A stretch of DNA of 64,000 bases from Psychroserpens sp. SPM9. Lineage in GTDB: Bacteria > Bacteroidota > Bacteroidia > Flavobacteriales > Flavobacteriaceae. The stretch covers positions 186,001-250,000 of the forward strand of contig NZ_JANZNR010000002.1 in the NCBI RefSeq assembly GCF_025153525.1. The letters are read 5' to 3'. The position numbers and the translations under genes were made by a program. This document shows, piece by piece, positions 2,074 to 17,307 of this stretch (position 1 is the first letter of the stretch; each line of letters starts with the position of its first letter). The notes beneath the pieces were generated by a model that ran no database searches, was not told the origin of the DNA, and saw nothing but the letters and a program-made list of their open reading frames with translations.

Positions 2074-4059
2074 TTGAAATACCCTAGTTTACATAAAATC
2101 CCTTATAATACCAATGTTGTATTGACTATGCTTTTGTTTTGTTTGATGCATTCAAGCTTAATAAACGCACAAGACCATACCAACTCAACATTTGATAGCG
2201 ACGTTACTACCTTACTATCACTAAAGCCAGTACACTATGCTTCGATTGACTCGCTGATTAAAACACATGCTCGAGACAGTCTCAAGATGAAGGCTTTAAT
2301 AAAAGACTCTAAAAGCCGCAATTATTTAGAAGGAGAAAGCTATGCGCTTAATGCATTGGGTGTAATTTACCGAAATGTTTCGCTGTATGAAGCCTCAATC
2401 AAAACACATGAAACTGCCAAAGCTATTGCTGATGAAGCTGAAAATATCGAGTTACAAATTGTAAGTCTTAATAATATTGGTGTGGCTTATCGCCGAATGG
2501 ATTTAGTAAAACCCGCATTAGACTTTCACACCAAAGCCTTAGATATTGCACGTTCTGTTAAAAACCCTTCGGAAACTATCTCTTATAATATTGCCGTTTC
2601 GCAAAATAGCATCGGGAATATTTATCTCATTTTAGACCAGTACGAACTCGCCTTAAAACAATTTGAAAAATCAATAGCGATTGAAAAAAAAGCCGGAAAC
2701 CGTTTAGGGCTGGCCATAAATTATCAAAATATTGGCTATGCTTACGAAGCTCAAGGCGAACTCGAAAATGCACTTCGTAATTACAAACTATCTTTAGAGT
2801 TTAACGAGCAAATTAATTCTAATTTAGGTCGTGTTATTTGCTATAACAGTATTGGACAAGTCTATATAAAACAGCGAAAATATATTGACGCTAAAGTGAT
2901 TATAGAAAAAGCCTTAAATAAAGCGCTTACGATTAACGATCAATTTTATATCGCTGCCTCTTATATTAATTTAGGTTGGGTTCAAAAGGAAATGGGAAAC
3001 CTTTCTACTGCGGAACGAAATCTTAAAAACGGATTAAAGGTCGCTAAACAATACAATCTCAACTTATCAATCGTTGAAGCCGATAAACACCTTTCAGATT
3101 TATACAATACAACCAACGACTATCAATCGGCTTTAGCACATTATAAAGAATCGGTTGAAGTTGAAAAAACCATCAATAACGATCGTAATTTACGCTATGT
3201 TAATGATGTGATTATTCAGTATGAGAATGAAGCAAAAAACAATGAAATTAAAGCGCTTGCCAGTGAAAATCAGATTGTAAAATCGAAGCTTGAACGCAAC
3301 AAAAAAATATTTTGGTACTCTATGCTGGCGCTTGCCATCATTGTTGGTGTGTTAGTTGGGTTATATCGCAACCGTCAACTGAGTCAGGAAAAACAAATCT
3401 TAACTCTAGAACAGGATATGTTGCGCAGTCAAATGAATCCGCATTTTATCTTCAATTCTTTAAATTCAATCAAGTTGTATATCATTAATAATGAAAAGGA
3501 AAATGCGGTGTATTACCTCAACAAATTCTCCAAACTTATTCGGAAAATTCTGGTAGCTTCTTCGGAAAAAGAAAACTCTTTAGAAGACGAACTCGACACC
3601 ATGAAACTCTATATGAACATTGAAAACATTAGATTTTCAAATGAAATAAACTTTGAAATTGAAGTAGATGATACCATTAATACGGCAAGTATCAAAGTAC
3701 CATCATTAGTCTTACAGCCCTTCCTTGAAAATGCTTTATGGCACGGACTCTCATCAAAGAAAGACGACAAGAAAATTGTATTGTACGTCTATAGAACTCA
3801 GGAAGATTTTGTAACTATTTCTATTACCGACAATGGGATTGGCAGGAAAGAAGCAGAAAAAATCAATCAGGACAAATTGCTTAAACGCAAATCTGTTGGA
3901 ATTGCCATAACCAAGGCACGATTAGCGAATTTCTCTAAAGGGTATACCAATGACTATAGTATTACCATTGAAGATTTATACGATGCTAATCAGCAACCCA
4001 TTGGAACACGAGTTATTGTCGATATTCCAACACGTTCTTCGGTGTTAAAAACTGCTTAA
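2074..4059 (+). CDS. TPR-repeat sensor histidine kinase (LytS/YehU type, His_kinase domain)
   Basis: This 661-residue membrane sensor kinase is the likely partner of the upstream LytTR regulator. Reading order: an export signal in the first ~33 residues, a periplasmic array of tetratricopeptide repeats to about residue 380, a coiled linker, one membrane helix near 412-431, then a His_kinase domain with His457 in NPHFIFNSLNSI and an ATPase domain (NALWHGL; DNGIGRKEA). The start is TTG at 2074, one base after the regulator's TAG, which suggests coupled translation. The first ATG (2128) would leave a signal peptide without its positive N-region, so TTG is preferred. The gene ends flush against the convergent next gene. 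Confidence 0.92.
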   Translation: MKYPSLHKIPYNTNVVLTMLLFCLMHSSLINAQDHTNSTFDSDVTTLLSLKPVHYASIDSLIKTHARDSLKMKALIKDSKSRNYLEGESYALNALGVIYRNVSLYEASIKTHETAKAIADEAENIELQIVSLNNIGVAYRRMDLVKPALDFHTKALDIARSVKNPSETISYNIAVSQNSIGNIYLILDQYELALKQFEKSIAIEKKAGNRLGLAINYQNIGYAYEAQGELENALRNYKLSLEFNEQINSNLGRVICYNSIGQVYIKQRKYIDAKVIIEKALNKALTINDQFYIAASYINLGWVQKEMGNLSTAERNLKNGLKVAKQYNLNLSIVEADKHLSDLYNTTNDYQSALAHYKESVEVEKTINNDRNLRYVNDVIIQYENEAKNNEIKALASENQIVKSKLERNKKIFWYSMLALAIIVGVLVGLYRNRQLSQEKQILTLEQDMLRSQMNPHFIFNSLNSIKLYIINNEKENAVYYLNKFSKLIRKILVASSEKENSLEDELDTMKLYMNIENIRFSNEINFEIEVDDTINTASIKVPSLVLQPFLENALWHGLSSKKDDKKIVLYVYRTQEDFVTISITDNGIGRKEAEKINQDKLLKRKSVGIAITKARLANFSKGYTNDYSITIEDLYDANQQPIGTRVIVDIPTRSSVLKTA

Positions 4060-4767
4060 TTAGCCTCCAAAAGCAGACATCATTGAGCCATATTTTGAAG
4101 CTTCAATTGAAAAGGTTGTTTTCTCTAAGCCCACACATTGCATTGTCATACTGTTTTTTGATTTCTTTTTATCTACATAAATCATTTCCATCATGAGTCC
4201 GTTGTCTGCATACTTTTTCATCCATTCAGGATTAAACCCTTTCGGCATTTTTTTGGCATTAGCCCCAAAAACCTGATTAAAACTAACTGGCACTTCATTT
4301 GTAATATAAAAAGTGATTTTCACGTCTTCATTTTCACTCACAAAACCTTCACAATCGAAGCCCATTATGGTTTTAGACTCTATCTTTTTAAAGGTATACG
4401 CTGAAGCATCTGTATCGCCTTTAAAATCGGAAGCTTTTAGTTTTGTTTTTTGTACAACTTTCTTACCCATCATCTCCATAAACATGGCCGAGATATTAAG
4501 CTTGTTATCCATCACCATAAACATCTTAGCATCTTCATTGGTTTTGGTCATTTCAGCAGAATCAAAACCAAAATAGGTCCCGCCTTTTTTTAAATAATAA
4601 TCAAAAGTCATATCGCCTTTTTTATGCGTCATTTTGAGTTTGTAGATATAATCAAAATCGTAGCTTGAAGGCAGTTCAATTTTAGAGGCTTTTTGAGAAA
4701 AAGCACTTTGAAAAAAGATGAAAAAAGTGATTAGAATAGTAAAATGTGTTATAGAATGTGATCGCAT
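4060..4767 (-). CDS. Secreted DUF4412-like protein
   Basis: This 235-residue exported protein starts with a clear signal peptide (MRSHSITHF, then a hydrophobic core ending SAFSQ). The mature part is Met- and Lys-rich and resembles DUF4412/GLPGLI-like proteins of Bacteroidetes, which have no established function. The frame stays open to a TTG at 4809, but the ATG at 4767 gives a sound signal peptide and is preferred. Its stop codon at 4060 directly abuts the stop of the convergent histidine kinase, and I see no terminator hairpin between them. The family assignment is moderate. Confidence 0.7.
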   Translation of the reverse strand: MRSHSITHFTILITFFIFFQSAFSQKASKIELPSSYDFDYIYKLKMTHKKGDMTFDYYLKKGGTYFGFDSAEMTKTNEDAKMFMVMDNKLNISAMFMEMMGKKVVQKTKLKASDFKGDTDASAYTFKKIESKTIMGFDCEGFVSENEDVKITFYITNEVPVSFNQVFGANAKKMPKGFNPEWMKKYADNGLMMEMIYVDKKKSKNSMTMQCVGLEKTTFSIEASKYGSMMSAFGG

Positions 4768-4885
4768 GAGTTCTGAAAATTTATAGATTAATTTATTGTA
4801 AATCTTCAATTTACGAATCCAATAATAAACTCAAAAGCCAAAATGTATATATGGTTTAAAATCCTGTGTAATTGGATGTCAATTT

Positions 4886-5452
4886 TCAACGGTAATTCTG
4901 AGCAACCTTTTCGAGCTCCAAATACCAATTTTCACCAAATTTTCTAATTAAGGCTTCTTTTACAAATTTATAAACGGGCACTTGTAATTCTTTACCTAAA
5001 GCACAGGCATCATCGCAAATTTCCCATTTGTCGTAATTAACAGCAGAAAATTCGGAGTATTCTTTAATACGAATCGGATACAAATGGCAAGATACTGGCT
5101 TTTTCCAGGAAATTTCACCTTGATTGTAAGCCTCTTCGATACCGCAAAGTGCTGTTTTTTTATCATCAAAAATCACATAGGCACAATCGGCTCCGTTGAT
5201 TAAAGGTGTCTCAAAATCACCAAAATCTGTAGTAATGTGGGTTCCTTGTTTTTCAATGGCATCAATACCTTCTTGGCGTAAAAATGGTTTTACTTTAGGG
5301 TAGATGGTCTTGAGTTTTTCAACTTCATCTGCATCAAGCGGAGCGCCTGCGTCGCCATCAATACAACAAGCACCTTTGCATGCCGATAAATTACATACAA
5401 AATCCTTTTCTATAATATCTTCTGAAACTATGGTTTTACCTAGTTGAAACAT
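4886..5452 (-). CDS. DUF3109 family cysteine-rich protein
   Basis: This 188-residue cytoplasmic protein matches DUF3109, a Bacteroidetes family related to YkgJ-type putative metal-chelating proteins. It has nine cysteines. One cluster is near the N-terminus (CNLSACKGACC); later come single cysteines in ADCAYV and ALCGIE, one in VSCHLYP, and two in ICDDAC. The spacing suggests a metal or iron-sulfur site, but no activity is established. It is transcribed away from marC, and the 105-base spacer holds back-to-back promoter-like boxes for both genes. Confidence 0.88.
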   Translation of the reverse strand: MFQLGKTIVSEDIIEKDFVCNLSACKGACCIDGDAGAPLDADEVEKLKTIYPKVKPFLRQEGIDAIEKQGTHITTDFGDFETPLINGADCAYVIFDDKKTALCGIEEAYNQGEISWKKPVSCHLYPIRIKEYSEFSAVNYDKWEICDDACALGKELQVPVYKFVKEALIRKFGENWYLELEKVAQNYR

Positions 5453-5478
5453 TTGATTTTAAGCTAAAATAATGAAGA

Positions 5479-5508
5479 CAAAAATAGGTAAACTTTACCA
5501 TTATTTAA
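5479..5508 (-). promoter_or_regulatory. Putative promoter for the DUF3109 gene
   Basis: On the minus strand a TTA (5508-5506) is followed after 19 bases by TATTTTTG (5486-5479), matching the Bacteroidetes -7 consensus TAnnTTTG. Transcription would start about 20 bases before the ATG at 5452. The -33 element is TTA rather than TTG, so the call is moderate. Confidence 0.45.
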
Positions 5509-5510
5509 CG

Positions 5511-5540
5511 TTATATATCTTACATAAAGACTTACTTTTG
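5511..5540 (+). promoter_or_regulatory. Putative promoter for the marC operon
   Basis: A TTA (5511-5513), 19 bases and TACTTTTG (5533-5540) fit the Bacteroidetes promoter layout, with transcription expected about 10 bases before the marC ATG at 5558. It lies back to back with the promoter-like site of the divergent DUF3109 gene. Confidence 0.5.
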
Positions 5541-5557
5541 CCGAAAATTCTCAAATC

Positions 5558-6151
5558 ATGGATATTCAATTAAATTTCAAGGAGATCTTAACCGCATTTA
5601 TGGTGTTATTTGCGGTCATTGATATTATAGGAAACATTCCTATTATTATTGATTTACGAAAGAAAGTTGGTCATATACAAAGTGAAAAAGCGTCAATAAT
5701 AGCTGGTGTTATTATGGTCTTCTTTTTATTTCTAGGAAAAACTATTTTATCCTTTTTAGGCGTTGGTGTCAACTCGTTTGCTGTGGCTGGTGCATTCATT
5801 CTGTTTTTTATTGCTTTAGAAATGATTTTAGGCATTACACTCTACAAACAAGACGAAAACACAGCTATGACTGCTTCTGTATTTCCATTAGCATTTCCTT
5901 TAATAGCAGGTCCAGGAAGCTTAACCACATTGCTGTCTCTAAGAGCTGAATTTAGAATTGAAAACATCATCATTGCGGTAATACTAAATGTTATTATTAT
6001 CTTTATCGTATTAAAAACCTCAGCTAAAATTGAGCGTATTATTGGTCAAAACGGAATCAACATCATTCGTAAAGTATTTGGTGTTATCTTACTAGCCATT
6101 GCAGTTAAACTATTTGCACATAACATCAAAGCGCTTTTTGAACTGGCATAA
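5558..6151 (+). CDS. MarC family integral membrane protein
   Basis: This 197-residue protein of the MarC/UPF0056 family has six hydrophobic segments, the usual length and topology. The family was once linked to multiple antibiotic resistance, but that role was not supported and its substrate remains unknown. Family features include the polar DIIGNIP stretch in the first helix and FPLAFPLIAGPGSL in the middle. It is the first gene of a tight operon: a 66-residue membrane protein follows after 9 bases, then a flavoprotein overlapping by one base. Confidence 0.92.
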   Translation: MDIQLNFKEILTAFMVLFAVIDIIGNIPIIIDLRKKVGHIQSEKASIIAGVIMVFFLFLGKTILSFLGVGVNSFAVAGAFILFFIALEMILGITLYKQDENTAMTASVFPLAFPLIAGPGSLTTLLSLRAEFRIENIIIAVILNVIIIFIVLKTSAKIERIIGQNGINIIRKVFGVILLAIAVKLFAHNIKALFELA

Positions 6152-6160
6152 TCTGGATTA

Positions 6161-6361
6161 ATGAAATATTTCACCATTCTATTTACTATTGTTGCTATTG
6201 GACTTATCGTATACAATGCGACCATGCTTGATTTTGACAGCCTGTTTGAAGGCGAAAGTGTTGTAGCACTAATCACAATCTTAGCTTCACTTTGCGGCAT
6301 TGCTTTATTACAATTATTACGATTATCTAAACGGGTCGACAAAAAATTAAAAGGAAAATAA
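6161..6361 (+). CDS. Small two-helix membrane protein, unknown function
   Basis: A 66-residue protein with two hydrophobic helices (about residues 2-20 and 33-53) and a basic C-terminus (KRVDKKLKGK). It sits between marC (9 bases upstream) and the FAD protein, whose ATG overlaps its TAA by one base. The tight packing supports it being a real gene. I do not recognise a family. Confidence 0.75.
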   Translation: MKYFTILFTIVAIGLIVYNATMLDFDSLFEGESVVALITILASLCGIALLQLLRLSKRVDKKLKGK

Positions 6362-6963
6362 TGTATGATGCTTTTATAATTGGTGGTGGCGCAGCTGGTA
6401 TGTCTTGTGCTTTAGTTTTAGGATCTGCAAAGTCTAAAGCTTTTGCCGAAAACAAACGTATTGCTATCGTGACGCATCAAAGAACATCACACTTACAAAA
6501 CGCTTTATTCAATAACGTTTTAGGTTTAGAGCCTGGAACTTTAGGTGCAGATATTCTTGAAAGCGGGAAAAAGCAACTCAGCAATTTATATGCACATGTG
6601 GAGCAGATTGCATCAGAAAAAGTAAAATCCGTGAAGCAAACCGACGGTCATTTTACCGTTATTACTAATAAAAACACATACCTATCTAAAATAGTAGTTG
6701 TTGCTGTAGGTTATACTAATTTATTAACTATAAAAGGCCTTGAAGCTTATGTTGAACCACACCCAAGAGCTGCTATTGAAAAAGACCGTATTTGGTTAAA
6801 AAATGACAATCACTTGGTGACTCATGGTTTATATGTTGCCGGAACATTAGCTGGCTGGAGAAGTCAATTTGCAATTGCTTCAGGAAGTGGCGCACAAGTA
6901 GCTACCGATATTTTAACGCTTTGGAATGACGGCAAGCAAACTAAGATCCACGATAAAATTTAA
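6361..6963 (+). CDS. Short thioredoxin-reductase-like FAD-dependent oxidoreductase
   Basis: A 200-residue flavoprotein of the pyridine nucleotide-disulfide oxidoreductase class. The N-terminal FAD-binding motif GGGAAGMSCALVLG (residues 8-21) and a C-terminal HGLYVAGTLAGW segment like the second FAD motif are present. The protein is far shorter than thioredoxin reductase (about 310 residues) and lacks both the NAD(P)-binding domain and the redox CxxC. Related short flavoproteins are often annotated as NAD(P)/FAD-dependent oxidoreductases with unknown substrate. It is the last gene of the marC operon. Confidence 0.85.
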   Translation: MYDAFIIGGGAAGMSCALVLGSAKSKAFAENKRIAIVTHQRTSHLQNALFNNVLGLEPGTLGADILESGKKQLSNLYAHVEQIASEKVKSVKQTDGHFTVITNKNTYLSKIVVVAVGYTNLLTIKGLEAYVEPHPRAAIEKDRIWLKNDNHLVTHGLYVAGTLAGWRSQFAIASGSGAQVATDILTLWNDGKQTKIHDKI

Positions 6964-6969
6964 ACATTT

Positions 6970-8598
6970 TTAGTTGCCACTGTTAGATGCTTCGAGTTCT
7001 AACTGTTCTTTTTCCCGACTTAAAAAGATGACTTCTTCAATCATATCGTCGGTTTCGTTAAGAATTTTTTCAGCAACATTACTTCCGTAGAGCTGTTGTG
7101 CTAATTCCGATTTGATTAGTCGTTTCATCTGATCGTAATAAGCTACAAAAGTGATGTTGGTACGTTCTTTTAAGTTAACAAAATCCTGAAATTTTAAAAC
7201 AATATCATCACTAACTTCAAAATTATTGATAAAATCGTCGACCTCGACACCTTTATAGATGCTTCGGTCTTTATCTAATTCGGTAAACACAAAATTACTG
7301 ATGTACTCACGACGCCTTAAGTAGTTTAGAGTTTCATTTTGAGCCGTGGTATTTAAAGGCACAAAGATGTCGGGGATAATACCGCCACCACCATAAACGA
7401 CTTTCCCTAGAGGTGTTTTGAACTTTAAAGAATCGGCAATTTGTATACTCTCAGGGTTTTCCAATTCGCCACTACTTAATCGTTTGTAGTAATCATTATA
7501 GTAATCGGTACTTTTCCCATTATCGTAAGGCCTTTGAATAGATCGACCTGTAGGCGTATAATATCTTGAAACTGTTAATCGTACTGCGCTTCCGTCTCCC
7601 AGAGACATTTCACGTTGCACCAAGCCTTTTCCGTAGCTACGACGCCCAACAATGGTGCCTTTGTCATTATCTTGAAGTGCTCCGGCAACAATTTCGCTTG
7701 CCGATGCCGAGCTTTCATTAATCAGAATATAAATATCGCCTTCTTCAAAATCACCATCATCTGTAGCAAAGCTTTTTTCAATTTTGCCTGTTTTGTTTTT
7801 GGTAAATAATATCAGTTTATCATCTTCTAAGAACTCATCAACAATCTGTTCTGCGATACCAAGAAAACCTCCTGGATTATCACGTAAATCTAGGGCCAAC
7901 TGGGTAGCACCTTGATCCTGAAGTTGATCTAAAGCCTTTTTAAATTCTTTATAAGTCGACTCGGCAAAACGATTAATTTTAATGTAACCTAACTTGTTGG
8001 TAAGCATATAAGCTGCATCAACACTTTTAATAGGAACCACATCGCGTTTAACCTTAAATTCTATTAGTTTATCTTCACCTTTTCGGAATACTGTTAGCTT
8101 TACTTTTGAACCTTTCTCCCCTTTTAGCTTTTGAATAATAGCATTGTTACTCCATTCTCTTCCGAAGATAGAATCGCCATCGGCCATTAAAATTCTGTCA
8201 CCAGCTTGAATACCTGCTTTTTCACTTGGACCGCCTTCAACCGTTCGTATAACGGTCACTGTATCATTATAGGTATAAAAATTAACACCAAGGCCCACAA
8301 AATCACCTTTCATATTATTGGTAACCCGTTCTAATTCACTTTTAGGAATATAAGTAGAATGTGGATCTAAGTTGTCTAGAATTCCGTTAACAGTAACATC
8401 GACGATGCTGTCTGTATTGACATCATCTACATATTCGTAGTCGATATAGTCTATGAGTCGGTTTAGTTTGTCTTTTTTGCTATTAGAGGTAAATAAACGA
8501 TCTGACGTATCGGTGAAATTTAATTTTCCGCCAATAAAAACACCAGCTGCAATAGCAACACCAACAATGAGTGGGATGTATTTTTTATCGAACGTCAT
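6970..8598 (-). CDS. S41 family C-terminal processing peptidase
   Basis: This 542-residue periplasmic serine protease of the CtpA/Prc class has an N-terminal signal anchor (about residues 8-25), a substrate-binding PDZ domain near 95-185, and the catalytic S41 core. The catalytic site is visible as the serine in ESSASASEI (about 297-301) and Lys324 in SYGKGLVQ, the Ser/Lys dyad of the family. Such proteases trim the C-termini of exported proteins. Its ATG directly follows the TAA of the dCMP deaminase gene, so the two are co-transcribed and probably translationally coupled. Confidence 0.94.
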   Translation of the reverse strand: MTFDKKYIPLIVGVAIAAGVFIGGKLNFTDTSDRLFTSNSKKDKLNRLIDYIDYEYVDDVNTDSIVDVTVNGILDNLDPHSTYIPKSELERVTNNMKGDFVGLGVNFYTYNDTVTVIRTVEGGPSEKAGIQAGDRILMADGDSIFGREWSNNAIIQKLKGEKGSKVKLTVFRKGEDKLIEFKVKRDVVPIKSVDAAYMLTNKLGYIKINRFAESTYKEFKKALDQLQDQGATQLALDLRDNPGGFLGIAEQIVDEFLEDDKLILFTKNKTGKIEKSFATDDGDFEEGDIYILINESSASASEIVAGALQDNDKGTIVGRRSYGKGLVQREMSLGDGSAVRLTVSRYYTPTGRSIQRPYDNGKSTDYYNDYYKRLSSGELENPESIQIADSLKFKTPLGKVVYGGGGIIPDIFVPLNTTAQNETLNYLRRREYISNFVFTELDKDRSIYKGVEVDDFINNFEVSDDIVLKFQDFVNLKERTNITFVAYYDQMKRLIKSELAQQLYGSNVAEKILNETDDMIEEVIFLSREKEQLELEASNSGN

Positions 8599-9030
8599 TT
8601 ATGCTTTTAAGTTTTCTATTAGTTCTAATTCAATGCCAGCCTTTTTTAAAAACTGCAATCCAGAATCGTCTTTATAACCTTCATGATATACAACTCGTAT
8701 AATACCCGCCTGATGGATAAGCTTGCTACACTCTTTGCAAGGCGACAACGTGATGTACAAGGTCGCACCTTTACAAGATTGCGTTGAAGCAGCCACTTTT
8801 AGTATGGCATTAGCTTCGGCATGTAACACATACCATTTGGTGTAGCCATCATCATCTTCACAATAGTTTTCAAAACCTGTTGGTGTTCCGTTATAACCAT
8901 CAGATATAATCATTCGGTCTTTAACAATTAAGGCACCAACCTGTTTACGTTTACAATGCGATAGTTTGCCCCATTCTTTAGCAATTCTCAAGTAAGCTTT
9001 ATCGTATCGTAGCTGTTTGTCTTTTGGCAT
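8599..9030 (-). CDS. dCMP deaminase (ComEB-like)
   Basis: A 143-residue zinc-dependent deaminase. The catalytic zinc site is intact: His70 and Glu72 in HAEAN, and Cys98 and Cys101 in SPCKEC. Such enzymes convert dCMP to dUMP for thymidylate synthesis. It is the first gene of a two-gene operon with the S41 protease, a pairing I recall from other Flavobacteriaceae. The intergenic region upstream (9031-9194) shows no convincing promoter match. Confidence 0.92.
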   Translation of the reverse strand: MPKDKQLRYDKAYLRIAKEWGKLSHCKRKQVGALIVKDRMIISDGYNGTPTGFENYCEDDDGYTKWYVLHAEANAILKVAASTQSCKGATLYITLSPCKECSKLIHQAGIIRVVYHEGYKDDSGLQFLKKAGIELELIENLKA

Positions 9031-9194
9031 TTATATAATTTATGACGCAAAAATTATTCCGAAGAAACCTTAATTAACGTCTATCATTAGGTTATTTTCT
9101 TTATGCTGAACATCAAATGTAATAATAATTCAAAATGTAATAGCCAATTATATGTTAGATAACGTTAAAGTTTTATCAAAATTGAGTTTGATTT

Positions 9195-9785
9195 TTAGGA
9201 TAGTAATTCGCTTTTAATGAGCATAGGAAGTACAAACCCGACAACAATTGCCGACATCACCATCACCCAATCCCGTTTTGAAAACCTAAAAAGTGTTTGG
9301 CATATAAAACTCAAAAAGATGATCAAGATGGCAACAACAAGTTGACCGACTTCTATTCCTAATCCGATTTCGATAATAGCAAGTAGCTTAGACTCAGACG
9401 CAGACACTAGAGTTTCAAAGGTAGATGAAAAACCAAAGCCATGTATGAGTCCGAAAAACAAAGTCACAAAAAACAACAAGCCTACTTTATTGCCGTGTGA
9501 CTTTTTACCTGCAGTAAACACATTAAATAAACCAATAATTAAAATGGTTATCAGGATTAAAAACTCTATAAACTTGACATTAATCGTAATAATATTATAG
9601 GTGGTTAATATCAAGGAGACACAATGACCAAGTGTAAAAACACTAACGAGTAATAAAACCCGTTTCCAGTCTTTAAATAGGTAAGGTACAGCGAGTACAA
9701 CTAAAAACAAAAGGTGGTCGTAGGCATTTAGATGAAGTACATGATAAACACCATCTTTAAAATTTGACAGAAAATCGTCAATCAT
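9195..9785 (-). CDS. HupE/UreJ-like membrane protein
   Basis: A 196-residue, six-helix membrane protein matching the HupE/UreJ_2 family. The family hallmark is the N-terminal HLNAYDHLLFL, with TLGHCVSLIL and LIHGFGFSSTFE further on. Relatives of HupE have been linked to nickel or cobalt uptake, but for this Bacteroidetes branch the substrate is not established. The reading frame is open to an ATG at 9860, but the ATG at 9785 (MIDDFLSNF) matches the usual family start, while the extra 25 residues look like untranslated sequence. No neighbour hints at a metal enzyme. Confidence 0.82.
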   Translation of the reverse strand: MIDDFLSNFKDGVYHVLHLNAYDHLLFLVVLAVPYLFKDWKRVLLLVSVFTLGHCVSLILTTYNIITINVKFIEFLILITILIIGLFNVFTAGKKSHGNKVGLLFFVTLFFGLIHGFGFSSTFETLVSASESKLLAIIEIGLGIEVGQLVVAILIIFLSFICQTLFRFSKRDWVMVMSAIVVGFVLPMLIKSELLS

Positions 9786-9947
9786 AATTTTTATTATTTG
9801 GGTTGAATCAAAGTTACGGTTTATAATTGAGGAAGAAAACAAAATAATCATGGCTTTCATCGATTAATTACCCATGAAATTCATTTTTTTTTATGATATT
9901 GTAATCTACTGTGTTATATTCGAAATCCTAACTTAACTTAAACTATT

Positions 9948-12900
9948 ATGAAGCACTTATTATCTGTTGCTACGATCTTTCTATGTCTTGTTTCTTTTGC
10001 TCAGGAAAAACTTCCGTTTATTGATTATGAAAGTATTCGGGAAATAGCTATTGAAAGCGAAACCAATAAAGAGTATGACAAAGCTATAGAAGCCCTAAAT
10101 CGCATTAGTAAAAATGATTCGACCTATTGTTCGGTATTGACCTCTAAATCGTATTATTCTATTCTTCAGCAAAAGTATGACGAAGCCATTGCCTTTACTG
10201 ATGAAGGTTTAAGTTTAAATTGTGACAGTGAGTCTACACTATATTTTTACATCAATAAAGGAGTTTCTCTTGCTAATACCGATCGTTTTGAAGAAGCCTT
10301 AGTAGTTTATAATAAAGCGCTAGAAATCTATCCGCGAAACGCAAAACTCTGGTACAATAAAGGTATTTCATTACAGCAGCTTAAAAAGGTACCTGAAGCT
10401 ATTGAAGCCTATCAAAACACAATTACCTATAATCCAATTCACAGAAATGCCCATTTACAATTAGGAAATATTTGCTACGAGCAACAGCTTATTTCTCAAG
10501 CATTAATGTGCTACAACATGAGCTTAATGATAGAACCCGATAGCGAACGTGGTTTTAACTTATTGAAATATTTAAATGAAATCGTTTCAACCAAAAACGA
10601 TCATGAGCCAAACCCAAATTTAACTGTTTCTAAAGATGATAATGCTTTTGAAGATATCGACTTGATTATAAATAACCGCGTTGTATTAGATACCGATTAC
10701 GATACTGGCAACAAAATTACCATCGCTTTAGTTAAGCAAAATCACGCCTTATTAGAACAACTAAAAGACATTGAAGGTCATGGTGATTTTTGGAGTAAGT
10801 TTTACATACCTTTTTATCAATGGATTGCTAGTGAAGGTCATTTTGACGACTTTACCTATACCTTAAACTATGCTATAAAAAATGAGGATTATAAAAAAGT
10901 CATCGAAAAAAACAAAGACAATGTAGATGGGTTTATTAAAGCTTTTGTGGCCAAATGGTATGACATTTTTACCAGAAATGGTGAAGGTTCTTTTGTTCAC
11001 AATTACGACGGTGGAATATTTCAGGCAGAAGGTCCTTTTAAGAATAATACGGTTACTGGTCACTGGAAATTTTACGACGCTAATGGGCGTCTATTAAGCG
11101 AAGGTGCTTATAATAAAAAAGGAGAGAGAAAAGACGATTGGAAATGGTATCATGACAATGGTAGTGTTAAAGAAATTGCCATCTATAAGGATGGAAAACT
11201 CAGCGGAAAAAACAAACTTTATTACGATGATGGCTCACCTTATATAATGGGTAACTCAAAAGATGGAGAATTTGAAGGCGACTATAAATATTATCTGAAA
11301 CAAGGTGGTTTAAAACAAAATAAGCAGTACAAAAACGGAAAGTTAAATGGTAAATACCTCGCGTTTTTTGATGTGGGTGAAGACTTGGTCGAATTTGACA
11401 TTGATTACAAAGATGGTTTGGTAGAAGGTGATGCTATAGAATATTATGCCAATGGTAAACAATATTCGGTTATTAACTTTAAAAATGGTAAACGTGATGG
11501 TAAGGAAACCCAATATTATAGAAACGGAAAAGTATCTATGGAAGCAACTTACAAAGACGATCAGCTTGAAGGTTCTTATATAACTTATCATAAAAACGGA
11601 GCTAAAAAAGATGTAGGACAAAGCAGTGAAGGCTATTTTGATGGCCCTTGGAAAACCTATTATGAAGATGGCACATTAGGTTCTGATTATATCTATAAAG
11701 ACGGACAACTTAATGAGACATATACCTCTTATGATAGAGACGGAAAAATAATTTCAGAATTTCAATATAGAAAAGGAGAAATTATAGGGTATAAATTCTA
11801 TGATAAATCGGGCGAAATCCTTTCTGAAAACCGTAAAAAAGGAGGTGAATTTTTCTACGAAGGCTACCATACTAATGGAAATAAATCTGGCGAAGGCCTC
11901 TATGATGTTAGAGGTGGTAAAGTTGGAGAATGGAAGTTTTATTCAGCTAATGGCGTCTTAAACGAAGAAGCGACTTACAAAGACAACGAACCTGTAGGCA
12001 TCGAAAAAACATATTATGATAACTCTGGTGATCTCCAAAGTATAAGTGAATATGATGACGAAAACAACAGAGTATTTTATCAATTCTATCATCCAGATGG
12101 TTCCTTAAAAACGCAAGGATGGTTTAAAAATGGTTACAAACATGGCGATTGGGAATTTTACTACATCGATGGCACCATTGAAGCCATTAACTTCTACCAT
12201 AAAGATCAATTGCATGGGGTTCAACAGTACTTTAATGTAGATGGCACTATAGATCGTGAAACGGCCTACGAATACGATTTATTACTTACCGAAAAGCAAT
12301 ACAATAATGCTGGAGAAGTCTACGAAACCTATTTATATAAAAGACCTGAAAAATCATATACTGTGGTCTCTAAATACCAAAATGGGAATAAAAAATCTGA
12401 AATGGATTATGTTAACGGCCAAAAACACGGCAATTACAAATTCTATAATTTCTACGGAAAAGTAACCATTACAGGCCATTATGTGAATGATGAAATGAAC
12501 GGAGAATGGAACTGGTATTTTGATAACGGACAACTTAGAATCAAGGAAACCTATGTGAATGGCGCTAATGATGGTCCTAAAAAACGCTATTATGAAAATG
12601 GTCAGTTAGAAGACGATTATTACTACGAAGAAGATGTTAAAAAAGGAACCTGGTTATCCTATTATGATAACGGTACTTTATACACCTCTACCGAGTATGC
12701 TTTTGACCAAAATCATGGTAGAAAAGAATTTTATAGTTCGTCAGGCAAATTACAACTTGTTAGATTCTATGACCAAGGACGATTAATTGGCTACAGCTAT
12801 TTGGATACGACAGGAAAAGAAAAAGAAATGATTCCTATCACCAATGAAACTGGACGAATAGAAGCCTATTACGATAATGGCAAACCCTCAAGAACCATGA

Positions 12901-13223
12901 CCTATTTAAATGGTGAAATTGATGGTGAGTATAAAGCTTATTATTATGATGGTACTTTAGAAAATCAAACCAATTATGAAAAGGGTGAATTTAATGGTCA
13001 AGATATTGAGTACTACGCTAATGGAAATGCAAAACTCAAAGAAGATTTAGTTTATGGCTATCGTCATGGTTTAACTGAAAAGTTTTACCCTAACGGAAAA
13101 CTAAAAGAGCGCATCAATTACCGTAACAACGAGAAGCACGGTGAAGTCACCTATTATGATGAAACTGGTAAACTCACTAAAACAGAGTACTATACAAATG
13201 GTTATGTCTATGAATCAAAATAA
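9948..13223 (+). CDS. Large secreted TPR plus MORN-repeat protein
   Basis: A 1091-residue exported protein. A signal peptide (MKHLLSVATIF, ending SFAQ) is followed by tetratricopeptide repeats at roughly residues 25-210, a linker, and from about residue 345 to the end some 30 short repeats of about 23 residues. The repeat pattern is YY-x-NG-x-L, a short strand, YKDG-x-x-x-G, as in MORN_2/YwqK-like repeats. These proteins are usually surface or periplasmic scaffolds with no known enzyme activity. The next gene, a DUF3857 transglutaminase, starts inside its last codons, so the two are coupled. No good promoter was found; the leader just before the ATG is AACTTAACTTAAACTATT. Confidence 0.85.
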   Translation: MKHLLSVATIFLCLVSFAQEKLPFIDYESIREIAIESETNKEYDKAIEALNRISKNDSTYCSVLTSKSYYSILQQKYDEAIAFTDEGLSLNCDSESTLYFYINKGVSLANTDRFEEALVVYNKALEIYPRNAKLWYNKGISLQQLKKVPEAIEAYQNTITYNPIHRNAHLQLGNICYEQQLISQALMCYNMSLMIEPDSERGFNLLKYLNEIVSTKNDHEPNPNLTVSKDDNAFEDIDLIINNRVVLDTDYDTGNKITIALVKQNHALLEQLKDIEGHGDFWSKFYIPFYQWIASEGHFDDFTYTLNYAIKNEDYKKVIEKNKDNVDGFIKAFVAKWYDIFTRNGEGSFVHNYDGGIFQAEGPFKNNTVTGHWKFYDANGRLLSEGAYNKKGERKDDWKWYHDNGSVKEIAIYKDGKLSGKNKLYYDDGSPYIMGNSKDGEFEGDYKYYLKQGGLKQNKQYKNGKLNGKYLAFFDVGEDLVEFDIDYKDGLVEGDAIEYYANGKQYSVINFKNGKRDGKETQYYRNGKVSMEATYKDDQLEGSYITYHKNGAKKDVGQSSEGYFDGPWKTYYEDGTLGSDYIYKDGQLNETYTSYDRDGKIISEFQYRKGEIIGYKFYDKSGEILSENRKKGGEFFYEGYHTNGNKSGEGLYDVRGGKVGEWKFYSANGVLNEEATYKDNEPVGIEKTYYDNSGDLQSISEYDDENNRVFYQFYHPDGSLKTQGWFKNGYKHGDWEFYYIDGTIEAINFYHKDQLHGVQQYFNVDGTIDRETAYEYDLLLTEKQYNNAGEVYETYLYKRPEKSYTVVSKYQNGNKKSEMDYVNGQKHGNYKFYNFYGKVTITGHYVNDEMNGEWNWYFDNGQLRIKETYVNGANDGPKKRYYENGQLEDDYYYEEDVKKGTWLSYYDNGTLYTSTEYAFDQNHGRKEFYSSSGKLQLVRFYDQGRLIGYSYLDTTGKEKEMIPITNETGRIEAYYDNGKPSRTMTYLNGEIDGEYKAYYYDGTLENQTNYEKGEFNGQDIEYYANGNAKLKEDLVYGYRHGLTEKFYPNGKLKERINYRNNEKHGEVTYYDETGKLTKTEYYTNGYVYESK

Positions 13224-15153
13224 AAACCTACATATTTACCTCTTCGTATTAACGTTTATCGCACTGCTCCCAAATTGCGCAAATGCCCAGTACACCAGAG
13301 AATTTGACCTGATAAAGAACAAATATCCTGATTCTAAAATTGTAAGGTTATTAGAGGATGTTAAAATTTCTGTGGCGTTAAAAGACAACGAGCTTGAGGT
13401 CAAACAATCCTTTATTGAAGAGGATTTATATCTAGATCAATCAGCCACATATGGCTCCAAAAGAACCTTGCGATTTTCTGCTTTTTTTGAACTGCAATCG
13501 GTAGAAGCCACCTCATACGAATACCGAGATGGCAAGTACAAAACCCATAAAGTAGAAGAGTTTCTGGAAAAAGATGAACTTGACGATTCCTTTCACGATG
13601 ATACAAAATCTCTAAACTTTATCTACCCGAATCTGTCTACGGGAAGCAAAACAAAGCTGGAATACACCGAAATTGTCAAAAACCCAAGATTTTTGAGTCC
13701 GATTTATTTTGGCGATTTCTTCCCAATTAAACAGAAAAAAGTCACACTGGTTGCCGATAAAGACATCACATTTAGATTTCAAGAATTCAATACCGAAGAT
13801 TACCATATCGCTTTTTCCAAAGAAGAAAAAAGAAATACTATAATTTATACTTGGGAAATTCTAGATGTCGACAAACACAAACATGAAGATAATGTACCAA
13901 GCTATCAACGCGTACTTCCGCATATCATACCCATAATTACATCGTACAAATCTAACGACCAAACAGTTAATTTGCTTCATGATGTTTCTGGGCTTTACCA
14001 ATGGTATTATTCGATGGTAAAAGACATCAATTTAAGCGAACCCGATCCTAATTTGGTGACTTTAACCAAAACCCTAATCAAAGATAAAACAACCGATTTA
14101 GAAAAAGCAAGGGCTATTTATTACTGGACACAGCAAAACATTAAATACATCGCTTTTGAATATGCTTTAGGTGGTTTTATTCCAAGGGAAGCCAACGATG
14201 TCTTCAAGAAAAAATATGGTGATTGTAAAGACAATTCAAGCATTCTGTATGAGATGCTTAAAATTGCTGGATTAGAAGGTCATTTAACATGGATAGGCAC
14301 ACGAAGCATTACCTATAGCTATAATGAGGTTCCTACACCCATTGTAGACAACCATATGATTTTATCTCTAAAACTTGATGGTAAAATTTACTTTTTAGAT
14401 GCTACAGGTCGTTATCTGCCTATAGAAATGCCTTCATCCTTTATTCAAGGTAAAGAAGCTCTAATTTCTAATGGCGAAACAAACTATGAAATTGTTGAAG
14501 TACCAGTTATGGACCCTAAATCCAATAGCTTTAAAGAAACCAACACGCTTGCATTAGAAGAGACCAATTTGACCGGACGTACAACCACTGAGATTTCGGG
14601 ATATTACAAGATTGATTTCTTTAATCAGTTAGAAGATGAAAACACGCCAACCAAAATTAAAGACTATTATACAACCAAATTAACCAAAGGTAATAACAAG
14701 TTTTTGGTTGATGATGTTTCAGAAAAAAACAAATACGATTATGATAAAAACTTAATTGTAGATTATACATTCAACATTAATGATTATGCTAAAAAATTAG
14801 GTGATGAAATTTATGTCAATCTCAATTTAAACAGAGATGCCAGTCACTATAAGTTTGAAAATAATCGCGAGAACGACATCGAAGTACGTTACAAAAGCTA
14901 TTACGATTATCAAACCACTTTAACCGTTCCAGAAGGCTATACTGTCGATTATATTCCAGAGAATTATGCTGTTTCAAACCCTTTTTTAGAGGCGACAATT
15001 AGTTACGAAAATATTGATAACAGTATTGTATACAAACATACTTTAGAAATGAAATTTTTAACACTTAATGCCCAAGAACAAAAAGAAGTGAATAGCGTCA
15101 TCAAGACCATAGAAAAAAATTACAAAGAGACCTTAGTCTTTAAAAAACAATAA
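13204..15153 (+). CDS. Secreted DUF3857 protein with intact transglutaminase-like site
   Basis: An exported protein of about 650 residues with a DUF3857 domain at the N-terminus and a transglutaminase-like fold in the middle. The Cys-His-Asp triad is present: Cys341 in YGDCKD, His384 in VDNHMI and Asp399 in FLDATG. Bacterial relatives may be peptidases or transamidases; the substrate is unknown. The frame opens at 13141, but ATG 13204 or 13210 gives a proper signal peptide (hydrophobic core, cleavage near NCANAQ); I use 13204. Either start overlaps the end of the MORN-repeat gene. A second DUF3857 gene follows after 9 bases. Confidence 0.88.
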   Translation: MSMNQNKNLHIYLFVLTFIALLPNCANAQYTREFDLIKNKYPDSKIVRLLEDVKISVALKDNELEVKQSFIEEDLYLDQSATYGSKRTLRFSAFFELQSVEATSYEYRDGKYKTHKVEEFLEKDELDDSFHDDTKSLNFIYPNLSTGSKTKLEYTEIVKNPRFLSPIYFGDFFPIKQKKVTLVADKDITFRFQEFNTEDYHIAFSKEEKRNTIIYTWEILDVDKHKHEDNVPSYQRVLPHIIPIITSYKSNDQTVNLLHDVSGLYQWYYSMVKDINLSEPDPNLVTLTKTLIKDKTTDLEKARAIYYWTQQNIKYIAFEYALGGFIPREANDVFKKKYGDCKDNSSILYEMLKIAGLEGHLTWIGTRSITYSYNEVPTPIVDNHMILSLKLDGKIYFLDATGRYLPIEMPSSFIQGKEALISNGETNYEIVEVPVMDPKSNSFKETNTLALEETNLTGRTTTEISGYYKIDFFNQLEDENTPTKIKDYYTTKLTKGNNKFLVDDVSEKNKYDYDKNLIVDYTFNINDYAKKLGDEIYVNLNLNRDASHYKFENNRENDIEVRYKSYYDYQTTLTVPEGYTVDYIPENYAVSNPFLEATISYENIDNSIVYKHTLEMKFLTLNAQEQKEVNSVIKTIEKNYKETLVFKKQ

Positions 15154-15162
15154 ATAACATCC

Positions 15163-17127
15163 ATGAAATTAGTATTTAATCTTTGCCTTGTCTGTTTTAT
15201 TAGCTTTAACCTTAGCCACGCACAACAACCATTTTACAAGTCGTATGATTGGGAGGCCAATCCCGAGTATACTGTTCAAGACCTTCACGATGAGAACATG
15301 GCAGGTATTAAAGAAAAAATTGTCTCAGAGTTTTATTTTGAAGGAGATGATTTAACTGAATACTTTTTAGAGCACAAAGTGTATTATCTGAATTCTGATG
15401 AAAAAATTGAAGCCTATAACAAAGTCTATTTGCCTTATGATTCGGAATCAAATTTAGAAATCAATAAAGCCAGAGTTATCACAGCTAAAGGCGAAATTAT
15501 TAATCTGGACGATTCAAAAATTCTAACTGCAACCGATTCTGAAACCAACAGAACCTATAAATATTTTGCTTTTGAAGGCATTGAAAAAGGAAGTTTTATA
15601 GAATACATTTACGTTGTGAAACGCTATCCTAATTACCGAGGAAAACGCATCAACCTTCAAGCCGATTACAACAAACTCAATGTGGAATTTGATTTATATG
15701 CGCCGTCAAACCTCTTGTTTAAATTTAAAAGTTTTAACGGTTTAGACGACGTGGTGAGAGATACGATTACAGAAGACAAAAAACACTGGTTTCTTAAATT
15801 AAATTCAGTAAAACTCTTAGAACCCGAAGAACTCGCCGTATATAATGCCGATAAAAAATTCTTGATTTATGCGCTAGATTCTAATACGGCTAGCCGAACC
15901 AGAGACATCACTTCCTATGCAAATGTGTCGCAAAATATTTATGATTTTTACAATAAAGAGCTTTCAAAAAAAGAAGTTTCAGAACTCAAAAAATTCTTAA
16001 AAGACATCGATTTTAAAGAAAGTGACGACATTGACACTAAACTCAGAGCCATAGAATCCTATATTAAAACTAATATTTTTATCGCGAACTCCAGTGGTGA
16101 TAAACTTTCGGAGTTATTAGACATTATAAAAGACAAGGTTGCTAACGATAGAGGCATCATTAAATTATACGCCAGTATTTTAAATTATCTCGACATTAAA
16201 AATGAATTTGTGTATACCTGCAGCCGTGAGTATATGCGATTTGATGAAGAGTTTGAAGCGAACAATTTCTTACAAGACATTCTGATTTATTTTCCAAAAA
16301 CAAAAACCTATTTATCGCCTACTGAAATTGATTCGCGTTATGGTTTTCCGCCAGCTTACCTAACAGATACTTATGGTTTATTTATTAAAGAAGTGGTTAT
16401 TGGTGACTTTAAATCTGCCGTCGGAAAAGTAAAATACATCCAACCTATAGCTGCCGAACACAATGTTGATAAAATGATTATTGATGTCACATTTGATGCT
16501 GATGATATTTCAAAAACGAACATAAAATTAGATCGTGCAATGTCGGGTTATTACGGTATGTACATTCATCCTTATATGGATTTAATACAGCCTGACAGTG
16601 AAAAAGAAATTTCTGAAGGCTTAGCAAAAAACCTAGATGAAGATGCTGAAATCACCAATAAAGTCATAAAAAACAGAGATTCTAAATTCTTCGGAATAAA
16701 GCCTATTCAATTTATAATTGACTTTAACTCGAGTAAATTTGTTGAAAAAGCCGGACGAAAATATCTATTTAATGTAGGTGATCTCATCGGAAGGCAACAA
16801 GAAATGTATCAAGAAAAAGAACGTGTGCTACCTGTTGAAAGCGAATTCCAACGAAGTTATTTCAGAACCATTAATATCACGATTCCTGAAGGTTATACCA
16901 TTGCGAATTTAGACGATATCACTATTAAAAACGACTATACAAAAGACGGAAAAGTATTGATGAGCTTTGATTCGTATTACGAGTTAAATGGCAATGTACT
17001 TACCATTACAGCCGACGAACATTACAGAATAAATCATATTGACACCAGCATTTATGAAGATTACAGAACCGTCATTAATAGTGCTGCCGATTTTAATAAA
17101 GTTACTTTAGTCTTAGAAGCGAAGTAA
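15163..17127 (+). CDS. Secreted DUF3857 protein with degenerate transglutaminase site
   Basis: A 654-residue exported protein with a signal peptide (MKLVFNLCLV, cleavage after SHAQ) and the same layout as the preceding gene: a DUF3857 domain, a transglutaminase-like core and a C-terminal beta-rich domain. Aligned by eye with its neighbour, the triad is lost: the Cys position is Arg in NDRGIIKLY, the His position is Gln in FLQDIL, and the Asp position is Ser in YLSPTE. It is therefore probably a non-catalytic partner of the first protein. It is the last gene of the operon; a hairpin terminator lies at 17182-17218. Confidence 0.85.
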   Translation: MKLVFNLCLVCFISFNLSHAQQPFYKSYDWEANPEYTVQDLHDENMAGIKEKIVSEFYFEGDDLTEYFLEHKVYYLNSDEKIEAYNKVYLPYDSESNLEINKARVITAKGEIINLDDSKILTATDSETNRTYKYFAFEGIEKGSFIEYIYVVKRYPNYRGKRINLQADYNKLNVEFDLYAPSNLLFKFKSFNGLDDVVRDTITEDKKHWFLKLNSVKLLEPEELAVYNADKKFLIYALDSNTASRTRDITSYANVSQNIYDFYNKELSKKEVSELKKFLKDIDFKESDDIDTKLRAIESYIKTNIFIANSSGDKLSELLDIIKDKVANDRGIIKLYASILNYLDIKNEFVYTCSREYMRFDEEFEANNFLQDILIYFPKTKTYLSPTEIDSRYGFPPAYLTDTYGLFIKEVVIGDFKSAVGKVKYIQPIAAEHNVDKMIIDVTFDADDISKTNIKLDRAMSGYYGMYIHPYMDLIQPDSEKEISEGLAKNLDEDAEITNKVIKNRDSKFFGIKPIQFIIDFNSSKFVEKAGRKYLFNVGDLIGRQQEMYQEKERVLPVESEFQRSYFRTINITIPEGYTIANLDDITIKNDYTKDGKVLMSFDSYYELNGNVLTITADEHYRINHIDTSIYEDYRTVINSAADFNKVTLVLEAK

Positions 17128-17181
17128 AAGAAATTTTTACTCAATTTAGGATGAACACTTTAGGTGTTGTGCACACAAAAT

Positions 17182-17218
17182 AAAAAAGCAAGCTTCGTAA
17201 TTTCGCTTGCTTTTTTTT
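17182..17218. terminator. Bidirectional terminator between the DUF3857 operon and tRNA-Leu
   Basis: The arms AAAAAAGCAAGC and GCTTGCTTTTTT pair around a loop of about 11 bases, and Ts follow on both strands. It can end the plus-strand DUF3857 operon and the minus-strand tRNA-Leu transcript. Confidence 0.8.
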
Positions 17219-17225
17219 GTATTTG

Positions 17226-17307
17226 TACTCAAGGTGGGAATCGAACCCACACTTCCGAAGAAACTGGATTTTGAATCCAGCGCGTCTACCAATTCCGCCA
17301 CTTGAGC
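17226..17307 (-). tRNA. tRNA-Leu (anticodon CAA)
   Basis: The minus strand folds as an 82-base tRNA of the leucine class. The acceptor stem pairs GCTCAAG with CTTGAGT (one terminal G-U pair) and has discriminator A. The D-arm region reads GGCGGAATTGGTAGACGC, the anticodon stem CTGGA/TCCAG encloses the loop TTCAAAA (anticodon CAA, reading UUG), and a long variable arm is followed by the T-arm GTGGGTTCGATTCCCAC. The 3' CCA is not encoded. Confidence 0.95.

Follow-up and report, generated by a model that had tools for sequence, protein, structure and literature searches.

A three-gene locus of Psychroserpens and its relatives, linking a TPR-MORN repeat protein to a predicted enzyme and its putative pseudoenzyme

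Introduction

What would bring together, in one bacterial genome, a giant repeat protein and two large proteins that carry a domain of unknown function (DUF3857)? The question is raised by Psychroserpens sp. SPM9 (Flavobacteriaceae; assembly GCF_025153525.1), in which three such genes, here called A, B and C, follow each other on contig NZ_JANZNR010000002.1. The window analysed is the whole stretch of 64,000 nucleotides from position 186,001 to 250,000 of this contig, and the coordinates of the locus refer to it. An original prediction, made from the letters of the window, had described the three products as a surface module, in which a scaffold of TPR and MORN-like repeats might be cross-linked or processed by transglutaminase-like proteins. 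The main features are:

9948..13223, + strand: gene A, putatively exported protein of 1091 residues with TPRs, a middle domain and a MORN-like array
10245..10562, + strand: best-scoring TPR repeats of A, residues about 100-205 (Pfam TPR_1, TPR_2, TPR_19)
10974..13193, + strand: MORN-like array of A, residues about 343-1082, 31 units fitted by script
13210..15153, + strand: gene B, putatively exported DUF3857 / Transglut_core / DUF3858 protein with Cys339, His382 and Asp397
15163..17127, + strand: gene C, putatively exported full-length homologue of B without the catalytic Cys (pseudoenzyme by sequence)

As predicted, the three large genes run head to tail, with an overlap of 14 bases between A and B (using the start at 13210) and a gap of 9 bases between B and C. 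The sizes of A and C (654 residues, open reading frame 15163-17127) were likewise reproduced. B has 647 residues from the ATG at 13210, and the predicted 650 would need a start at 13201; a GTG-started open reading frame of 670 residues extends the frame further back to 13141.

We interpret A-B-C, with moderate confidence, as a soluble, exported and most likely periplasmic enzyme-pseudoenzyme pair placed on a repeat scaffold. At the level of sequence, the linkage of the genes, the export signals, the catalytic triad of B, the loss of this triad in C and the near-constant length of the repeat array can be regarded as established. The linkage usually holds across the class, and the module is a compact and apparently exported unit whose genes can be removed singly.

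Conservation of the gene order

Full-length A was retrieved from 11 of the 120 genomes of a family sample (own genome included), with partial matches only in three more. Further full-length copies came from an order sample (8 of 246 genomes), a phylum sample (5 of 345) and two named genomes, those of Arcticiflavibacter luteus (L084), a cultured marine relative, and of an uncultured Psychroserpens; among the named genomes, locus L086 gave a partial MORN match only. (G and L numbers are our handles for genomes and loci.) In these searches up to six, three or two of the best candidates per genome were scored for the family, order and phylum samples, respectively, so that the 109 of 120 family genomes in which no full-length A was found among the best few candidates are no proof of absence.

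Where A is present, its neighbours hardly vary. B directly follows A at all 26 full-length A loci, the window included, and C directly follows B on the same strand and contig at 25 of them. The exception is G016, in which A-B lies at the end of one contig and C at the end of another; the 3.9-kb contig of L026 was left out of the neighbourhood counts. With the first ATG taken as start, the intergenic distances on one strand range from -104 to +60 bases for A-B (25 cases) and from -38 to +100 for B-C (24 cases). A C of at least 42% identity occurs in 11 genomes of the family sample, and these coincide with the 11 that have full-length A. The adjacency on which the prediction of one module was built is therefore the rule and not a rarity. 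Among 140 flanking open reading frames (three per side), resemblances were limited to three groups of close loci (L047/L048/L051, L074/L075/L076, and the window with L084/L085) and four scattered families of 2-6 members. The flanks thus mostly differ, which argues that the A-B-C linkage is not regional synteny.

A second search started from C, so that the loci were not chosen on A. It matched 28 of the 149 genomes of a class sample at 1e-30, own genome included, and 24 C loci were fetched, leaving out the own genome, G376 and G449 (already seen) and G121, which holds a pair (L132) resembling B'-C', the sister pairs of B-C. A contiguous A-B-C was present at 19 of these 24 loci.

Two variants of the order were observed. 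L057 of G057 (3012-14283) has the order B-C-A-B-C, with a second, diverged B-C pair before A. At L169 of G768, a 312-residue TPR protein with a signal-peptide-like start lies directly 3' of C (8450-9388) and matches the TPR part of the A profile.

The DUF3857 proteins B and C

B and C both belong to PF12969 (DUF3857), which was found at E <= 0.01 in 10 of 11 B-type and 9 of 11 C-type members. Their profiles align with each other over 588 columns, with a hhalign probability of 99.6%. In B, three Pfam families pass their cut-offs: DUF3857 (37.6 bits, cut-off 24.6), Transglut_core (31.7, cut-off 23) and DUF3858 (27.3, cut-off 27). In C, DUF3857 is the sole family above cut-off (52.3 bits against 24.6), and the C of the window has no Pfam match to Transglut_core, a domain detected at E <= 0.01 in 11/11 B-type versus 2/11 C-type members.

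The catalytic residues follow the same division. Aligned to Cys339, His382 and Asp397 of B, the Cys-His-Asp triad is complete in 49 of 49 B proteins (27/27, and 22/22 further ones; the sets of 27 B and 27 C take in the second pair of G057) and in 8/8 B'. The aligned Cys is absent from all 51 C (27 and 24) and all ten C'. At the other two places, C retains the His in 2/51 and the Asp in 8/51 cases, never both, hence at most one triad residue. B thus has what a catalytic transglutaminase-like protein needs, Transglut_core above cut-off together with the triad, and C, without the Cys, does not. Since B and C align over almost their entire length and the triad is gone in C, C is, as read from its sequence, a full-length homologue of B that has lost catalysis. 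The transglutaminase-like fold predicted for both proteins is accordingly supported by homology, but the catalytic residues occur in B only, and the idea of two enzymes has to be given up.

This pairing extends beyond the A-B-C locus. SPM9 itself carries DUF3857 in five genes: besides B and C, these are two paired genes on contig 11 and a lone gene on contig 36. In a phylum sample of 61 genomes, the domain is present in 22. Besides two A-B-C loci, the list from these genomes contains 15 tandem DUF3857 arrays, pairs or triplets, which take in the own contig-11 pair and one B'-C'-like pair. Each of the 15 has exactly one member with the catalytic Cys and one or two without. The motif of the live member is GDC, or ADC in the contig-11 pair of SPM9, and the third catalytic residue in the 14 aligned live members is Glu (12) or Asp (2). 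The live, second gene of L134 was counted by its GDC motif alone, being missed by the profile, as were L139 and L140; matches in G371, G375, G366 (C5), G361 (C3/C7) and G381 (C18) were left unclassified. Of six single genes, L003, L138 and L142 are Cys-less, and L139, L140 and L141 carry GDC. The proteins of L139 (1454-3523) and L140 (1469-3496) have no obvious signal peptide, as judged by eye from their N-termini. GDC is also kept in five longer DUF3857 proteins. The only one of these that was scanned, L143 (1239 residues), combines TPRs with DUF3857, Transglut_core and DUF3858, and by this domain content is a natural fusion of A-type and B-type parts. DUF3857 proteins should therefore be studied as live/dead pairs and not as single enzymes.

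The repeat protein A

The predicted TPRs and roughly 30 MORN-like repeats were recovered in A. Pfam finds TPR families and MORN_2 (141.9 bits, cut-off 29.6; six repeats pass singly), and 31 MORN-like units were fitted to residues 343-1082, of which three score poorly.

The array hardly changes in length. From W282 to the C-terminus, 45 full-length A proteins measure 807-836 residues (mean 815.6, standard deviation 5.9), and 42 of them have no internal insertion or deletion of at least 12 residues relative to the A of the window, with identities as low as 23%. The exceptions are L179, L183 and L184, in which 23-25 residues, as many as make up one unit, are inserted. The alignment places the insertion at residue 935 in L179 and at residue 819 in L183 and L184, so that it may reflect one event or two. 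Individual units do not keep their identity to the same degree. In a register test with eight orthologues, the unit at the same position was the best match for 28 of 31 units in a close one, and for 3-13 of 31 in the seven others, which indicates that units can no longer be recognised one by one in distant orthologues. This test depends on the alignment; the finding on length is independent of register. Since its length barely changes over class-level divergence, the array lends itself well to the question of what is measured or held by a MORN array. The repeats, the nearly constant length, the linkage to B-C and the fusion with TPRs together suggest that A is a scaffold.

Export and location

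Export of all three products, as originally predicted, looks probable. Signal-peptide-like N-termini were detected by a hydrophobicity script in 22 of 26 A, 25 of 26 B and 26 of 26 C. Of the four A without one, three (G186, G178 and G223) encode, immediately 5' of the start used, a hydrophobic segment with AQS at its end, indicating that this start had been misplaced. In the A of G509, a further hydrophobic stretch was flagged. A script found no lipobox in any of the 78 A, B and C proteins, and no sorting domain is among the Pfam matches of A. From these features we infer that A, B and C are soluble and exported. The surface location of the original prediction thus finds no support in these scans, and we prefer the periplasm as the simpler reading.

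Proposed function and alternatives

In the proposed mechanism, B would be a transglutaminase-fold Cys enzyme that acts, through its intact Cys-His-Asp triad, on an amide bond in a protein or peptide of the envelope. The fold and the triad predict hydrolysis or transfer, so that the reaction could be either a cleavage or an acyl transfer. Pseudoenzymes often regulate or direct their partners. C may be such an old, catalytically dead partner, which binds B or the substrate and regulates or directs B, and we propose for it the role of a regulator or substrate presenter. A, as a TPR-MORN solenoid of nearly constant length, would dock and place the B-C pair. A physical complex, an activity of B and a division of labour among the three proteins are what we infer from the patterns described above.

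Several observations weigh against this picture. The parts can occur separately: at three of the 24 C loci (G769, G784 and G692) B-C stands without A in the fetched stretch, C lies apart from B in G697 and G760, and the B'-C' sister pairs have no adjacent A (eight of ten C' loci have B' next to C'; L042 is cut by a contig end and L046 is without a B' that could be found). Profile searches of the genomes placed a full-length A-B of G697 on another contig and B of G760, in two pieces, on two other contigs; with all candidates scored, they gave no full-length A in G760, G769, G784 or G692. A is thus not essential to the pair. Between the distance matrices of A, B and C the correlation is 0.94-0.95, and with that of the unrelated PRPP synthetase gene (prs) it still reaches 0.79-0.86, so much of their agreement is shared ancestry. 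As a control for length, another MORN protein of SPM9 (363 residues) matched mostly through its C-terminal end, and among the matches listed, the five spanning most of the protein (own included) had open frames of 366-404 residues; near-constant array length is therefore claimed for A alone. AlphaFold predictions from alignments of three sequences (the window and two loci) reached a mean pLDDT of only 35 for A and 36 for C. Lastly, a Cys precedes the aligned position by two columns in 4 of 51 C.

The A-less pairs bear directly on the possibility that A is itself the substrate, with B cross-linking or cleaving the scaffold and C presenting it. Such a role would agree with the constant linkage of A to B, with the transglutaminase-like fold of B and with the precedent of LapG, a periplasmic protein of a related kind whose target is an adhesin encoded nearby, according to the passages on it in PMC4241560. 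Cross-linking of A is nevertheless not favoured, because B-C and B'-C' pairs persist without it; furthermore, the array positions conserved to at least 95% among 26 A are Gly and one Asn, without Gln or Lys, though a substrate need not conserve them. We therefore drop the notion of A as an obligate substrate and consider a substrate role in general unlikely.

The separation of C from B in G697 and G760, together with the Cys-less single genes of L003, L138 and L142, could instead mean that C is an independent binding protein, which uses the fold only and works apart from B, the tandem order being a relic of duplication. Against this speaks the live/dead pairing, which is found in each of the 15 other arrays as well as in the B-C and the B'-C' clades and makes an independent C improbable.

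The displaced Cys of the four C proteins raises a third possibility, namely that C is no pseudoenzyme, but an enzyme whose active site has moved or is of another kind. C does have nearly invariant residues of its own, including R355, D361, R392 and the C-terminal stretch A642-K646. No Cys of C is conserved at 95%, though, and the only Ser reaching this level, S604, lies close to the C-terminus; we consider this third possibility very unlikely.

Returning to the enzyme-pseudoenzyme pair on a scaffold, a bolder version can be imagined, to which we assign a low probability. The locus would encode a new envelope machine, in which the MORN array, its length being under selection, serves in the periplasm as a ruler or a bridge, by which an obligate enzyme-pseudoenzyme pair is brought to a junction or to a set distance, while tandem DUF3857 proteins in general would be live/dead pairs with different scaffolds. 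At about 1 nm per unit, an estimate from strand spacing, 31 MORN units would extend over about 30 nm if straight.

Evolutionary history

A quick tree was built from 66 C-type proteins. It unites every C of the A-B-C type in a single clade with a support of 99; the A-less and split cases branch within this clade, and the B'-C' proteins fall outside it. Judging from this topology, a live/dead pair probably existed first and acquired A a single time, with a few losses afterwards; a single loss in the B'-C' line would fit equally well. The C of L179, L183 and L184, the three loci with the array insertion, form one clade with the C of L186, which has no A beside it.

The combined tree of A, B and C broadly follows that of prs, with discordant rows for G216, G050, G016 and G120. 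Because of this agreement, descent with frequent loss seems to be the main mode of inheritance, and recent horizontal transfer is not favoured as the main story.

Genomic surroundings

On its left side, A is adjoined by a divergent HupE/UreJ-like gene (Pfam scan). Two further features close the locus on the right:

17175..17220, + strand: terminator-like hairpin and T run just 3' of C
17225..17307, - strand: tRNA-Leu (caa), the right-hand border of the module

The hairpin has a predicted energy of -14.5 kcal/mol (z -3.66 against shuffles) and is not among the matches of a pattern scan. A promoter scan returned 35 sites versus 35.5 expected and carries no information. Beyond the tRNA gene lies prs.

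The same tRNA-Leu adjoins A-B-C in the window and in two close relatives, the latter with other open reading frames in between. At L088 (2584-3842; G045, genus Psychroserpens, no A found there), an open reading frame with a Recombinase domain (PF07508, 42.1 bits, cut-off 21.1) overlaps the tRNA-Leu(caa) beside the PRPP synthetase gene. The tRNA-Leu(caa) site may be an integration hot spot.

The A-less B'-C' pairs of L037-L045 are set amid neighbours alike in size and order. In L041 (5416-13642), the single locus of these that was scanned, the neighbouring genes are of the AMP-binding, Rce1-like, MenC-like and fatty acid hydroxylase types.

Comparison with known systems

In the open-licence literature searched, which does not cover most subscription journals, no A-B-C module was described in the titles and abstract openings among the matches listed, and no paper combined DUF3857 with MORN or YwqK with a transglutaminase. 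DUF3857 is named there in one paper, PMC6341742, and in the passage concerned only as a gene neighbouring lolA. No PADLOC model matched A, B or C at E <= 0.01, arguing against a known anti-phage defence system.

YwqK-type proteins have MORN_2 repeats in common with A, which scores far above the MORN_2 cut-off, as given above. A YwqK antitoxin is defined by a partner toxin gene next door and a cytoplasmic location. A differs in its signal peptide, its TPRs and its linkage to B-C; with a signal-peptide-like N-terminus and HupE/UreJ, B, C and PRPP synthetase as neighbours, it was rejected as a YwqK antitoxin. The best NCBIfam match of A is the LIC20035 family adhesin (NF033566, E 7.7e-34), and with 117.2 bits against an equivalog cut-off of 250, A was not assigned to it. 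The TPRs match designed TPRs and O-GlcNAc transferase structures, and among the MORN repeats two stretches resemble the SET7/9 methyltransferase (E 3e-5 and 6e-5), in both cases at the level of repeats only.

For B, the sole match of its profile in the Protein Data Bank (PDB) at E <= 0.01 is 3kd4, a 'putative protease' of the DUF3857/DUF3858 type (E 3.2e-6), limited to profile positions 120-355; the C profile had no PDB match at E <= 0.1. Further comparisons are offered by the bacterial transglutaminase-like cysteine proteases LapG and HvyA, as portrayed in the relevant passages of PMC4241560: LapG is a periplasmic enzyme that cleaves an adhesin encoded nearby, and HvyA requires its Cys-His-Asp triad to prevent capsulation. 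B was not assigned to their family (BTLCP), as Pfam at E <= 0.1 gives only DUF3857, Transglut_core and DUF3858. HvyA has 272 residues, DUF3857 is unmentioned in the text of PMC4241560, and its descriptions of the two proteins include neither a dead twin nor a MORN scaffold. What B would share with LapG and HvyA, as these passages present them, is the character of an exported transglutaminase-like protein with its target in the cell envelope.

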